Shown here one piece after another: positions 3,175-33,647 of a DNA stretch of 33,647 bases (positions within the stretch are counted from its first letter, which is position 1; each line of letters opens with the position of its first letter). The notes under the pieces were generated by a model. That model was given only the letters and a program-made list of their open reading frames with translations, did no database searches and had not been told where the DNA came from. The stretch comes from an uncultured Ectothiorhodospiraceae bacterium (GTDB lineage Bacteria > Pseudomonadota > Gammaproteobacteria > S012-40): positions 1 through 33,647 of the forward strand of contig CALZJE010000046.1 of the NCBI GenBank assembly GCA_945787715.1, given 5' to 3'. The translations under genes were made by a program, and so were the position numbers.

Positions 3175-4744
3175 GGACAGACCAGAATGGCACTAACTTA
3201 AGCCGCTTTAGCACGGTATCGACTCCGATGTTTAATCTCCTTCATTTCCTTTCTTGGTTTGTTGAGTAACTGATAAGGCTTAGGCCTACGTTTGACACAT
3301 CTTGGTTCACTTCTCTCTGGTCGTTCGGGAACAATTTTGTCTGCAATTGAGTCATACAATTTTGAAAGCAATTGCTTAGATTCTTTGGTCGTTATTTTCA
3401 CGTTGTTAATATGAGGCTCCCACTGTCTCACCGCTTACACACTTCCTTTAAAGCTGATTCGACGAACAGAAACTTCCTGTTTAATTGATGCTTCGACCAT
3501 TAAACGACGAATACAATTATAGGCAATGAAATGCATGGTGATTTCTTTCTGAACCATCAATGGTGTTTTACATCTCAGCACATCCATACCCATTGTGGTT
3601 TTGATATCTCGAAAAAACAGCTCAACATCCCATCGCTGCAAATAAAGCTCGGCAATTTCGTGTGCGGGATAAGTAATTGGATCAAGTAATGTGGTAATAA
3701 TATAGAGGGATTCTGTTCGGAAACCGGGTTCATTAACCGTCACTTTAATTTGACGTAATATTAACTTCTCAGGAAGTTGTTGCCACTCTTCTTCGGAGTA
3801 ACTTAAATTTTTGTGTTTCTTTGGCTTCTTCCACTCAATTAACAAATCATCTTTACCGAGTATTTTGATCGCTGTTGTTTCTGTTTTTGGTATACGCCGA
3901 GCTAAGGTAATCACGGAATCAACTTCGCGATCTTTAAACACAGAAATGTCATAATAGCTGCAAAAACCCTTATCCCCGAGGAGAATATCGCCGGACCGAA
4001 ATGTATGAGTTTGTTTTCTTAATAGCGGCAGCTCGTGGTTCTTTTTGTTTCCCAATTCATAACTGAGTAATGCGCCTGTATGAAGAGAAAAGCAGGCACA
4101 AATGCGTGCTTGAGGAAATCCACAACCCGATTTTTGTGGGCTTGCTGTGGCCAAACTTCTTGATTCTCTGGAGTGTTAGGCATGCTCACTCCCGTTCCAT
4201 CGACAACAATCACTCGCCGATCATTGAGTAGTCCCGATGACAGGTTATGGTCGAAGTTATCAGACGTGAATTTAAAAATTTCGCTTAGGTCGTCTAACAT
4301 CAGCTTTAGTCGAGCTTTGCAATACGATGCCGTTGAAGAGGATAACGTAATCGATTTCAATGCCGCAACAGCTTGTATTTTTCGAACGACCTCTTGGCAC
4401 CCGCCATCCGCATCTAAAACTTGAGAGAAAAATGCCCAGAAGGTGTTTTCTTTGCTATATGCCCGATAACGACTCCAATCACCCTGTTTTTCTGTTTTCA
4501 AAACATCTGTCGGAATAAAGTGTCGAAAAAACTCATTGAGTTGAGTTAAGGAATTTTCCTTGAGCTTTTCGATTTTCTCTAGAAGTTTTTGCTTCTCCGT
4601 TTTCGGTTTCCGGCGTAAGGTAGGTAAGTGAAATCCGGGGAACATTGGAGTGGGATTGCCATGTTTAAGTGCCATGTTATGAAAGAAATTACACCCTATT
4701 TCACATGCTAAAGCGGCTTAAGTTAGTGCCATTCTGGTCTGTCC
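3175..4744. mobile_element. IS4-family insertion sequence, degenerate
   Basis: The element is bounded by 39-bp perfect inverted repeats at 3175-3213 and 4706-4744 (outer end GGACAGACCAGAATG). Inside is one leftward transposase reading frame broken by a frameshift and a stop. The flanks (AAATAGG on the left, TCCAATACC on the right) do not form the 10-13 bp direct duplication normal for IS4 insertions, so one flank was probably rearranged. The right terminal sequence continues into a RAYT transposase remnant. Confidence 0.85.
3198..4675 (-). pseudogene. IS4-family DDE transposase, frameshifted and with an in-frame stop
   Basis: Three pieces form one protein. The first (4675 to about 4120) carries an N-terminal region and the first catalytic Asp in VVDGTGVSMP. 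The second (about 4140 to 3435) carries the second Asp region (ILLGDKGF) and the YREK signature (YLQRWDVELFFRDIK). The third (3431 to 3198) is the basic C-terminal tail and ends inside the left inverted repeat. A one-base frame change near 4120-4150, just after NQEVWPQ, joins pieces one and two. A TAA in the sequence KGSV-stop-AVRQW (about 3432-3434) separates two and three, which share a frame. With both lesions the element is unlikely to transpose by itself. The frame change site is not a classical slippery heptamer, so I favour decay over programmed frameshifting. Confidence 0.85.
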
Positions 4745-12402: not shown

Positions 12403-13180
12403 ATCATTAGGGGTTTAACCAAGTATATTGATAACGGCCAGAATGCATCATAATATATAAAGCTATAATGACATAGCCACTAGGACTATTTGATTTTCGC
12501 ATTAATAAAATAACAATACCCCGATAGTTAAAATAAGGAAGAGCATAAGTATTGCTGCTTATTAAAAATATATCTAACAATGAAATAAACGAGATTGTTT
12601 ACGTTGTCGATTGGCTGTATCGAGAGAGCAACGAAGTTGTTCGTGACTTTAAAAAAGATGAGGGACGCTCCCTCGTAATCGCCTAAAAGGAGGAGATTAC
12701 AAACCACCCAATGCTGCTGAGGTAAAAAGCCTTGGCGGTGAGTGAGCTGGGAAAAGTAGATGGATAATGTACCTGGAAAAGGTGCCTGGCCTGCATAATT
12801 GTTTTTTTAGCAACATTAGGTGATGAATCACGAATTTTTATCCATACGGTCGTCATCTCCTGGCCGGGTGTACTAGTTCAGTAACTGTAATTGAATGTCC
12901 ACAATTCGCGCATTGCTGCCACTCGAAACTCCAAACTGAATATCTCATTCGAAACAATTCCGACCTTACGCGGTCTTTTAGAAAAAGCTTGCGTAGACTT
13001 GAAAAAAACACTGAAAGCGGACATTAGAAAATTGAAAATGAGATCGGAAATATATCATTAATACTAACGATCATTACAATATTTAGGGTGCCCCAAGTTC
13101 AGATTAGTTTGAATATGGTACAACTCACCTGACTCTAAATCTTACGACCCTAAATCTCCCAATATCAGCTAAACCCTTGG
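12403..13180. other. Intergenic, no supported gene
   Basis: About 780 bases. There is a short hairpin at 12660-12674 (GAGGGA-CGC-TCCCTC) without a T-tract, and a coding-like stretch at about 12571-12684 (NEINEIVYVVDWLYRESNEV) lacking a start. Nothing here is long enough or similar enough to a known family to call. It may hold degraded gene or mobile-element sequence. Confidence 0.5.
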
Positions 13181-14011
13181 TCAAGGCTGATCCGGCAGTC
13201 CAATTTCGATGATTGAGGTTCCCCTAGACAAGAAGTTCGCCATGATCGAGATCTGATCAGGTGTAAAATGTTTATTTTGTAGCTCAAGAGATCTCATGTA
13301 CTGTAATCGGCTATGTATGTCCGGTATCCAGATCTGTTCATCAGGATAAATCAAGTGCGGATCACCGCTTCTGAGCAGGTCGCGATTGCGTCTGCCGTCT
13401 TGTCCTCGAAAATCATAAAGTGTTCGCCAAGTCCCAACAGGTGGTCGGAAGCCAATGCGATCAGCGATCCCAGATAGAGTATCTCCTCTTCGGATCTTGT
13501 ACCAAATGGTTCGTTGCTGATCTTCCAGCATTGGCCGATAATTATGGTGAAGGGAGTTGATGAACATGAAATTTCCAGGATCGCCAGTATGGCCAGAACC
13601 ATCCTGGCCACCGTTTATCACGCCGAAGAGGTGGGCGGCCTCATGAATCGCCGTGACACTGATCGTTTTCCCTAATTCATGTGAAATTTCTCGACACACA
13701 GGCTCGCAGGTCCGACAACTCCCTACATCCAGACAATAGTTTCGCCTTCTCAACGCTTCGACATTTACTCTCCCTGTAACCCCTGCAATTCCCGGCCGAT
13801 ACCAGCAACGATCTCGATTAAACTGGTTCCAGTTATAGCTCCTGAGAAATGTCAGGTTATATAAACTGGTACTTGTACCACTCCAATCAATGCTAAGCGC
13901 ACCCGACTGAATTAGACTCGAGAAACCGGCCTCGATTTGCTGACGCACATAATTGGGAAAGGGAACGTATGAGAAATTTTGTATGTTTAGGATTCTAGTC
14001 GTCATCATCAT
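13181..14011 (-). CDS. Zinc metalloprotease-like domain fused to LysM domain
   Basis: A 276-residue protein. Residues 1-150 form a zincin-like domain with HEAAHLFG (His123, Glu124, His127); His141 or Asp144 in SGHTGDPGNFM could complete the zinc site. A cysteine cluster precedes it (C93, C99, C102, C106). Residues about 160-210 are a LysM domain (WYKIRRGDTLSGIADRIG ... IYPDEQIWIP), which binds N-acetylglucosamine-containing glycans such as peptidoglycan. There is no signal peptide or membrane helix. Three ATG codons occur in a row; GGGAG spacing favours the third (14005). The gene seems more GC-rich than its neighbours and lies alone, suggesting transfer. It could be a cell-wall-targeted protease or an injected effector. 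Confidence 0.75.
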   Translation of the reverse strand: MMMTTRILNIQNFSYVPFPNYVRQQIEAGFSSLIQSGALSIDWSGTSTSLYNLTFLRSYNWNQFNRDRCWYRPGIAGVTGRVNVEALRRRNYCLDVGSCRTCEPVCREISHELGKTISVTAIHEAAHLFGVINGGQDGSGHTGDPGNFMFINSLHHNYRPMLEDQQRTIWYKIRRGDTLSGIADRIGFRPPVGTWRTLYDFRGQDGRRNRDLLRSGDPHLIYPDEQIWIPDIHSRLQYMRSLELQNKHFTPDQISIMANFLSRGTSIIEIGLPDQP

Positions 14012-14794: not shown

Positions 14795-16309
14795 ATGTCA
14801 CACAACAACGACACCATCGTTGGTCATTTAGCTTCGCATGAGTTGTATCAAAGTAATTTAGAAAATGCTAAACAGTTATTAAAAGACTACTTTGAAGGTA
14901 GATCCAGTGCTATTGAGCAATTCAAAGAGAATCATCCATTCGGTAAACAAGCAGACTTTACGCCGAATTTGCAAGATGCCCATTTACTCATTGCGGGAAA
15001 AAATGTACGAATCAAAAAACTTTCATTAGAAAAACTCAAGAAAGAAGCGAAAGACCTACTCAGGGCAATTAAGTCACAATCACCAACGGCAATAACCCGC
15101 ATAAAGAACAACCACCCCAGGGGAGAAAACTGTCAACTTTATACAATAAAACTTGCCGATGCTCAGTCTATTATCGCTCGAGAAAACGGGCTATCCAGCT
15201 GGGCTAAGTTAAAACACCATTTCAATATCATTGAACTCGCACAAACGCATTTAAAATCTCCGCACCTTACTTTAGATCATGATATGAAAACACTACATAT
15301 TCGTTGTGGTGACGACATCCGAAAAGCCATCGAGGATAGTGGTTTTAGTGGTGACTTTCTAGAGATTACAAACCCTTTCTCCCAAGGGCCTGTTCCTCAT
15401 TTTGAACCGTTAGACGAGTTTATCGAAACGCGCGCACAATTTGTATTAGAAAATTATGCACCAGATATTCCCAAAGAATTTGGTGATCGAGCACAAAACT
15501 CTGCCACAGAATTCCGCGAAATAGAAAAGCAGCTACGGCAGTTACCCAATGACTACCGACGTATTACAGTTTGGTTTGAACACGATCCTTTTGATCAACT
15601 TTGCCTCGCTTATATTCTGGCTCATTTATCAAACCAGAATTTGAACGGCTGCAAAGTCGAGCTAATTCAAGCAAGTAAATTCCCTGGTATTAAGAAATTT
15701 GTCAGCATTGGCTATTTAGGTGAATATCCTGAAGGGTTGATCATGTTGTGGCAACAGCGTGTAACTGTTACCCCGGCAATGATTGCATTTGGCACACGTT
15801 GCTGGGATGCTTTTACCTCTAAAACACCTCATGAGATTTATCAGCTCACTCAGGAAAAATCTCCACTACCAGTTCTGCAATCCGCATTAATACGAACGCT
15901 ACAAGAACTCCCTTGGAAGGGAAACGGACTCAGCTTAACCGAACACCTTACTCTAGAAATTGTTAAACGAGAATCACAGATCAACTTAGCTAAAACTTTT
16001 CATTTTCTCAACACAGAAATCGAACCAATGCCTTATCTCGGAAACATTATGTTCTTAGCCATTGCGAAAAACTTATGGAAGTATGATGTAAACGCGTTAG
16101 ATATTGTATCAACAGATGAAAGCGAGCCAGCCATGTCGCGAGAAACTCTTGTGATAAATGAGCTAGGGAATAAGCTGTTAAAGAATAATGCAAACTGGTT
16201 AGAGGTTTGTGATAAAAAGTACCAACGATGGATAGGTAACACGCGAATCTCACCCAACAAAAAGAACTGGTATTGGTGTGATAAGACCAAACAACCGATA
16301 TTTAAATAG
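14795..16309 (+). CDS. DUF1835-domain protein with duplicated N-terminal helical motif
   Basis: A 504-residue cytoplasmic protein. The central part, from about residue 166, is DUF1835-like (LHIRCGDDIRKAIEDSGFSG, then DFLEITNPFSQGPVP). It has the family-typical WFEHDPFDQLCLAYILAHL around 260-280 and a C-terminal region of the DUF3658 sort. The N-terminal 150 residues contain two copies of one motif: about 24-72 (AKQLLKDYFEGRSSAIEQFK, NHP ... LQDAHLLIAGKN) and 85-141 (AKDLLRAIKSQSPTAITRIK, NHP ... LADAQSIIARENGLSSWAKL). The ATG at 14795 follows TAAGGAG. The biochemical role of DUF1835 is not established to my knowledge. The gene stands alone and is intact. Confidence 0.75.
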   Translation: MSHNNDTIVGHLASHELYQSNLENAKQLLKDYFEGRSSAIEQFKENHPFGKQADFTPNLQDAHLLIAGKNVRIKKLSLEKLKKEAKDLLRAIKSQSPTAITRIKNNHPRGENCQLYTIKLADAQSIIARENGLSSWAKLKHHFNIIELAQTHLKSPHLTLDHDMKTLHIRCGDDIRKAIEDSGFSGDFLEITNPFSQGPVPHFEPLDEFIETRAQFVLENYAPDIPKEFGDRAQNSATEFREIEKQLRQLPNDYRRITVWFEHDPFDQLCLAYILAHLSNQNLNGCKVELIQASKFPGIKKFVSIGYLGEYPEGLIMLWQQRVTVTPAMIAFGTRCWDAFTSKTPHEIYQLTQEKSPLPVLQSALIRTLQELPWKGNGLSLTEHLTLEIVKRESQINLAKTFHFLNTEIEPMPYLGNIMFLAIAKNLWKYDVNALDIVSTDESEPAMSRETLVINELGNKLLKNNANWLEVCDKKYQRWIGNTRISPNKKNWYWCDKTKQPIFK

Positions 16310-32117: not shown

Positions 32118-32144
32118 TTAAGGGAAAATCATAGAAGGTGAGCT

Positions 32145-32322
32145 ATGAATTTTAACTGCACTTTTTAGTCAAGCTCTGGAAAGTTTCTGGTTAGTGGTCG
32201 GTGTTCTTTTTACTCTTGGTGGCATGTGGGGACTATAAAACGTAAACATTGCATTGACGCCGCTTATATTGGTAAAAGTAGGGCTGTTTCTTCTTATATC
32301 TGCGTTGAAGCGTAAGAAGTGA
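32145..32322 (+). pseudogene. Decayed small two-helix membrane protein
   Basis: An ATG at 32145 with AAGGTGAG upstream hits a stop after seven codons. The +1 frame from 32149 reads ILTALFSQALESFWLVVGVL, FTLGGMWGL, stop, then NVNIALTPLILVKVGLFLLI and SALKRKK before TGA. Joined, this would be a protein of about 57 residues with two transmembrane helices and a basic tail (positive-inside). One frameshift and one in-frame TAA break it. It lies 27 bases after the hemG-like stop and probably was its downstream partner. Confidence 0.45.
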
Positions 32323-32338
32323 AGAGAAATAACCGCCG

Positions 32339-32378
32339 CTTGATGAAAAAATATTTCTACTCAATTACATCTATAAAA
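32339..32378 (+). promoter_or_regulatory. Promoter-like 40-bp block, copy 2
   Basis: Starts CTTGATGAAAAAATATTTCT and continues ACTCAATTACATCTATAAAA. It is a near copy of 31261-31300. It ends 23 bases before the ATG of the TusA/DsrE-type lipoprotein gene, the distance expected for its promoter and leader. Confidence 0.5.
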
Positions 32379-32401
32379 ATCTGTGCATGAAGGAGAGGGA
32401 G

Positions 32402-33142
32402 ATGAAAAAGATTTTATCGATTGCTTTGTTCTTGTGCCTCATCGGGTGCGCGACAAAAAATGTTGTTTATAAGCCTGTACTGGAAGGTACAAGATCAGCG
32501 AATTTGACCCTCGACGTTCGCGGGAAAACAATAACTACCTATATGGCTTACCACGCAGAGAAACGTTTATCTTCAATGAAAAATGGTGAAATATTGGAAC
32601 TGGTGACGGGTAACTACGAAGCGTTTGAAAGTGATTTGAGAGCATGGACGCGAAAAAGAGGTTATCCCATACTGGAGGTGGAAAAGAACTCAGAATATGA
32701 ACGCTATTACATCGAAAAAGCCACACCAAAGAAAAATCCCACTAAAGTTGCGATGATCATTTCTGATCCTGGATTGACTACATTACTTTCACCACTGGGA
32801 TTCTCTTTGGCCGCGGCTCTGGAAGGCGCTGAAGTACATATTTATTTTCAGGGGCCTGCAGTCAAAATGTTTGAGCAAGGATTTAAAGCCCAGCTGAGCG
32901 GATGGTCGCGCCCTTTTAGTATGTTTGCACGTGATGAAATAGAAGCGACAGGGCATAGCCCACCTCAGGAAAAGTTAAGGCAATTGCGTAGTCTTGGTGC
33001 GAAATTGTATATATGTGCACCGTCACTCGATTACTTCGGTACTGATAGAAGTAATTTTATATTTGAAGATATACCAGTCGTCGCATATCTTACCTTTATG
33101 GAAATAGTCAGTGAAGCGGATGTACAATTTTTTCTGCAGTAG
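32402..33142 (+). CDS. Lipoprotein with TusA-like and DsrE-like domains
   Basis: The ATG at 32402 is chosen over 32387 because AAGGAGAGGG sits just upstream and MKKILSIALFLCLIGC is a typical lipoprotein signal (lipobox LIGC, Cys16, Ala at +2, so outer-membrane sorting expected). Residues about 36-105 follow the TusA fold (LTLDVRG ... LSSMKNGEILELVTGNYEAF ... DLRAWTRKRGYPILEVE), but the usual Cys-Pro after LDxRGLx is Ile-Thr (44-45). Residues about 113-246 resemble DsrE/DsrF (VAMIISDPGLTTLLSPLGFS, EGAEVHIYFQGPAV, GAKLYICAPSLDYFG) and keep one Cys (205). TusA and DsrE normally relay sulfur in the cytoplasm; a membrane-anchored exported version would be unusual. A role in envelope thiol or sulfur chemistry is inference. 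Confidence 0.75.
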   Translation: MKKILSIALFLCLIGCATKNVVYKPVLEGTRSANLTLDVRGKTITTYMAYHAEKRLSSMKNGEILELVTGNYEAFESDLRAWTRKRGYPILEVEKNSEYERYYIEKATPKKNPTKVAMIISDPGLTTLLSPLGFSLAAALEGAEVHIYFQGPAVKMFEQGFKAQLSGWSRPFSMFARDEIEATGHSPPQEKLRQLRSLGAKLYICAPSLDYFGTDRSNFIFEDIPVVAYLTFMEIVSEADVQFFLQ

Positions 33143-33356: not shown

Positions 33357-33647
33357 ATGACCGAATTTAAAGAATCGATATCATCAACGCTTTGCCAGCA
33401 ATTTGGGTTTTATGAAGAACAAAGGCTGCAACGGCTTAGGTTATTGGATTTAACAGATGATGAGAAGGTCAATGCTGAAACACTTATCGAAGAAGTAATA
33501 GCGCCGAACATTACAGATATTGTTGATGAATTTTATTCAAAACTCATTGAAGATCCAACTGCCCAAGAGTTTATCAGTGATGCTGAATTGCTAAATCGAC
33601 TTAAGAAAATCCAATCAAACTATCTACTAAATCTTGGTATAAATTTT
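33357..33647 (+). CDS. Globin-coupled sensor, N-terminal part (runs off right edge)
   Basis: 97 codons from ATG 33357 (AAGAAG upstream) to the window end. The sequence RLRLLDLTDDEKVNAETLIE, then EEVIAPNITDIVDEFYSKLI and FISDAELLNRLKKIQSNYLL, matches the first helices of the protoglobin/sensor-globin domain of globin-coupled sensors. That domain binds haem and senses oxygen. The proximal His would be further along than the visible part. The output domain (commonly GGDEF, EAL, methyl-accepting or kinase) is outside the window. Confidence 0.8.
   Translation, partial: MTEFKESISSTLCQQFGFYEEQRLQRLRLLDLTDDEKVNAETLIEEVIAPNITDIVDEFYSKLIEDPTAQEFISDAELLNRLKKIQSNYLLNLGINF

Follow-up and report, generated by a model that had tools for sequence, protein, structure and literature searches.

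Sulfur relay by TusA and DsrE proteins is regarded as a cytoplasmic business; what, then, would a single polypeptide carrying both folds behind a lipoprotein signal be doing at the cell envelope? The question is posed by one gene in a 33,647-nucleotide window, the whole stretch of DNA analyzed here, which, judging from the locus around the gene, comprises an entire contig (C46). The reading that we favor, with a rough probability of 0.4, is that the product is a lineage-specific, envelope-tethered carrier that would hold sulfane sulfur or thiosulfate on one cysteine, and that its TusA lobe would serve for docking or structure and not for catalysis.

The open reading frame at 32402-33142 on the forward strand, TAG stop included, is intact and encodes a 246-residue predicted lipoprotein with a TusA and a DsrE domain. 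A Shine-Dalgarno-like AAGGAG (32391-32396, +) lies ahead of the ATG at 32402, and the sequence directly 5' of this codon, AAGGAGAGGGAG, forms a strong ribosome-binding site, making 32402 the likely start. An alternative in-frame ATG 15 bases upstream, at 32387, was rejected on the same grounds, and the start given in the first-pass annotation was kept. Both GC content and GC3 of the gene are similar to those of the neighboring genes.

The neighbors themselves encode a HemG-like flavodoxin and a protoglobin, and no sulfur gene adjoins. A relative in the same family encodes a flavodoxin of 73% identity, without the lipoprotein gene beside it; this match supports, while not proving, the assignment of the contig to the genome, and contamination is therefore unlikely. 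Between the flavodoxin and lipoprotein genes, at 32118-32386, lies a stop-broken frame resembling what is left of a small membrane protein (FWLVVGVLFTLGGMWGL and, after the stop, NVNIALTPLILVKVGLFLLISALKRKK), and the protoglobin domain at 33357-33647 (+) is cut off by the contig end and may begin a globin-coupled sensor. Elsewhere the window holds a full-length match to the Rfam model group-II-D1D4-2 (12660-12776, +; 82.1 bits), two overlapping ORFs, each in its own frame, resembling a frameshift-split transposase (3435-4675, -), a protein that has a zincin-like HEAAH motif and matches LysM below threshold (13181-14011, -), a 504-residue protein with a DUF1835 domain (14795-16309, +), and another predicted lipoprotein (MTKLTKYLIASLFLVLIAC) with no Pfam match (1481-2239, -).

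The N-terminus of the TusA-DsrE protein, MKKILSIALFLCLIGC, combines a basic n-region and a hydrophobic core with a match to the core lipobox [LVI][ASTVIG][GAS]C, here L13-I14-G15-C16, a pattern that also arose in 167 of 100,000 sequences made by shuffling residues 2-35. The predicted signal peptide thus spans residues 1-15 (MKKILSIALFLCLIG; 32402-32446, +) and the putative lipidated residue is Cys16 (32447-32449, +). Under the +2 sorting rule, Asp at this position is a retention signal; the protein has Ala at +2 and no such signal. The stricter G+LPP and PROSITE-type lipobox patterns do not match, deviating at position -4 only, which is occupied by Cys12. The lipoprotein call is a good one on the strength of the core motif, from which we infer export and lipidation at Cys16, whereas the "strong" lipoprotein signal claimed at first was slightly generous given the mismatch at -4, which also weakens the carrier reading. 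Residues 17-32 (32450-32497, +) form a predicted tether that was modeled mostly at low confidence, with pLDDT below 50 for mature residues 1-13.

Profile searches placed both folds in the one polypeptide, as had been proposed, with each Pfam match above its curated cut-off. The TusA domain comprises residues 33-107, approximately (32498-32722, +), and the Pfam TusA match (PF01206) covers residues 52-106 with E=4.1e-8 and 33.4 bits against a gathering cut-off of 28.6. This match begins at model position 17, leaving the CPxP region outside it. When the protein was aligned with four TusA proteins from dsrE-tusA pairs, their CCPMPM faced TITTYM, confirming the earlier observation that Ile-Thr stands in place of the TusA Cys-Pro and showing that the catalytic cysteine and both prolines are lost. 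With ITTY where a TusA sulfur carrier has CPxP and its catalytic cysteine, the domain is therefore a TusA fold but not a TusA carrier.

The situation in the second half of the protein is the reverse. The DsrE domain, at about residues 115-246 (32744-33139, +), gave a Pfam match (PF02635) over residues 116-240 with E=2.1e-9 and 38 bits against a gathering cut-off of 22.7. The whole protein contains cysteines only at positions 12, 16 and 205, and in an alignment with five DsrE proteins Cys205 (33014-33016, +) is the only one that coincides with the invariant cysteine of the nearest relatives; the same residue aligned in a second alignment of four relatives and faced the cysteine of the DsrE2 that this genome encodes. 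In the model of the mature protein, strand E186-190 ends at Cys205 and a helix follows. As judged from these alignments, then, the catalytic site is gone from the TusA half and preserved in the DsrE half. Cys205 had been described as the one cysteine remaining in the DsrE-like half, and while it is the sole cysteine of the mature domains, its conserved active-site position indicates that it is no leftover. The same placement makes sulfur or thiol chemistry likelier than a purely structural role, favoring one side of the original suggestion of a structural or redox module at the envelope.

Together, the two above-threshold domains and the invariant position of Cys205 argue for the carrier reading. 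An envelope lipoprotein that reuses both sulfur folds for a non-sulfur role, in structure or in ligand or protein binding, with Cys205 simply carried over, seems to us rather unlikely, as it would have to explain why the one cysteine that the mature domains retain sits exactly at the active-site position. It would nevertheless accord with the loss of the TusA motif, the lack of a nearby sulfur gene, and the orphan character of the sequence, which is about 23-29% identical to its relatives. A further point in its favor comes from DsrE3A of Metallosphaera cuprina, which has two cysteines arranged as Cys-X7-Cys (PMC4175335); in the lipoprotein the corresponding residue 213 is Gly and the second conserved cysteine is absent.

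Structure prediction of the mature protein with AlphaFold2, using a small alignment of eight single-domain relatives, yielded a mean pLDDT of 77.8 and a pTM of 0.60, the latter leaving the relative placement of the two modeled lobes open, with low confidence at mature residues 1-13. The TusA half adopted a beta-alpha-beta-alpha-beta-beta order. Foldseek searches of the PDB returned DsrE-family structures first (2qs7, 3pnx, 3mc3 and 1jx7), with 2qs7 and 3pnx matching the DsrE domain, followed by TusA-family structures (the YeeE-YeeD entry 8k1r, 3lvj_C and 3hz7), with TM-scores by target of 0.77 for the DsrE structure 2qs7 and 0.80 for each of the TusA structures 3lvj_C and 3hz7. The match to both structural families favors the carrier reading, but the alignment already presupposes both homologies, so this model serves as a consistency check only. 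When predicted without an alignment, the TusA half kept most of its strand and helix order (the first short strand was missing) at a block pLDDT of about 58-80. The DsrE half was poorly predicted at low confidence, which counts against the carrier reading.

Searches for a full-length homologue returned none in the 13 genomes of the organism's own family (all those sampled of the order), in 369 genomes of the class, 398 of the phylum and 385 of another class of the phylum, or in 31 genomes of the order holding the best single-domain match; these samples overlap, and the whole-genome search covered the organism's own phylum. Single-sequence exact-pattern scans of genome and viral contigs returned none either, nor did plasmids or phages, and an alignment-based scan of genome contigs, run with just two DsrE patterns that divergent orthologues can escape, returned dsrE-tusA pairs only. 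As pattern scans depend on short conserved stretches, the absence of a homologue means absence within what was searched. The matches that did emerge were DsrE and TusA proteins of one domain each, whose genes are often adjacent, with dsrE preceding tusA. The notion of an undescribed family thus found no second full-length member in the family, class, phylum, contig, plasmid or phage searches; the TusA-DsrE lipoprotein is a lead from one known sequence, and "family" overstates it.

The want of an orthologue, like that of an adjoining sulfur gene, weakens the carrier reading, and it could also indicate that an old pair of dsrE and tusA genes gained a signal sequence and is now decaying, with little or no function. 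The degraded-looking stretch just upstream (32118-32386) and the mobile elements elsewhere in the window fit such a history. We regard it as very unlikely, however, in view of a frame that stays open over 246 codons behind a good ribosome-binding site, a composition like that of the neighboring genes, and a divergence from single-domain relatives so large that the frame has probably been open for a long time.

Does the genome offer the proposed carrier a metabolic setting? On another contig (C61) it encodes SoxX, SoxY, SoxZ and SoxA, all scoring above the NCBIfam cut-offs, along with tusA and dsrE2, near which lies a gene for an ETHE1-like metallo-beta-lactamase-fold protein. DsrE2 and the TusA-DsrE lipoprotein are the only two PF02635 proteins in the genome. 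The Sox genes make it probable that the organism uses Sox to oxidize thiosulfate and that SoxYZ holds sulfane sulfur in its periplasm, and together with the separate, ordinary TusA-DsrE2 pair they indicate a host that handles periplasmic sulfane sulfur. A link between the lipoprotein and sulfur oxidation is consequently plausible, although the genes are not physically linked. The PF04143 (YeeE/SoxT) transporter family had no match in the genome, and in H. denitrificans the route by which Sox-bound sulfane sulfur enters the cytoplasm has been called unknown, with SoxT proposed (PMC11582611); both points favor a carrier.

The same genomic context bears on a different role, in which Cys205 would scavenge reactive sulfur or thiols at the envelope as a protection factor independent of Sox. 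A predicted exported position with one reactive cysteine would suit this role, and the ETHE1-like protein near tusA-dsrE2 suggests exposure to persulfide. Yet nothing points to it specifically, and the flavodoxin neighbor is not accompanied by the lipoprotein gene in the relative, so that we consider protection quite unlikely.

Under the carrier reading, the signal peptide would be cut before Cys16 and the lipidated residue would anchor the protein to a periplasm-facing membrane (the outer one, should sorting follow the E. coli +2 rule), with the short flexible tether presenting the two folded lobes. A donor in the periplasm would load Cys205 of the DsrE lobe with a persulfide or thiosulfate group, which an acceptor thiol would then receive. 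Having lost CPxP, the TusA lobe would carry no sulfur; its contribution would lie in docking or structure, as a vestige of the usual DsrE-TusA partnership. Among possible donors here, the most obvious would be SoxYZ, the carrier that the Sox pathway uses in the periplasm. The fully specified version, in which SoxYZ gives up its sulfane sulfur to a DsrE-type carrier that sits in the outer membrane or faces the periplasm, in a cell with no detectable YeeE/SoxT importer, and the dead TusA lobe does the docking, is a long shot; if true, it would be a periplasmic extension of a supposedly cytoplasmic relay.

How, finally, does the protein compare with known systems? The long form of YedF (TIGR03527, selenium_YedF, 194 positions), which we take to be a cytoplasmic TusA-then-DsrE fusion, was considered and rejected as its identity, as the lipoprotein gave no TIGR03527 match at E up to 10 (cut-off 110 bits). 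At E 1e-10 the model had no match in this genome or in 184 other genomes of the class, and a literature search on TusA/DsrE fusions with YedF found nothing. The literature that we consulted held no direct precedent for an exported or lipoprotein DsrE. A single-domain DsrE protein with an apparent signal peptide is, however, encoded near a dsrE-tusA pair of another genome, at L006:506-1000 (-), providing a second apparently exported DsrE fold; it differs in having neither a TusA domain nor an evident lipobox, and its position adjoining that pair favors the carrier reading. DsrE2 (NF047629) and TusA of the same genome share the folds of the lipoprotein, and the DsrE2 cysteine aligns with Cys205, but they are separate proteins without an export signal, and the lipoprotein scores 14.2 bits against a DsrE2 cut-off of 210.

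Closest in content are the cytoplasmic DsrE-TusA gene pairs (such as L005, L006, L016-L019, and DsrE3A/TusA of M. cuprina), which have the same two folds and the same DsrE cysteine position. They differ in being two genes, dsrE then tusA, in lacking an export signal, and in a TusA that retains CPxP, at about 23-29% identity to the lipoprotein. In M. cuprina the cysteines of DsrE3A and TusA bind thiosulfate from tetrathionate, and DsrE3A hands thiosulfate to TusA (PMC4175335), a transfer that, together with SoxXYZA and the DsrE2 and TusA of the genome, favors a carrier here. The architecture is real and unusual and its parts are well known, making the protein a variant of known sulfurtransferases. 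If this lipid-anchored fusion works with its TusA cysteine lost and its DsrE cysteine kept, a familiar relay would be in use beyond the cytoplasm, at a point where the transfer of Sox-bound sulfur still lacks an explanation.
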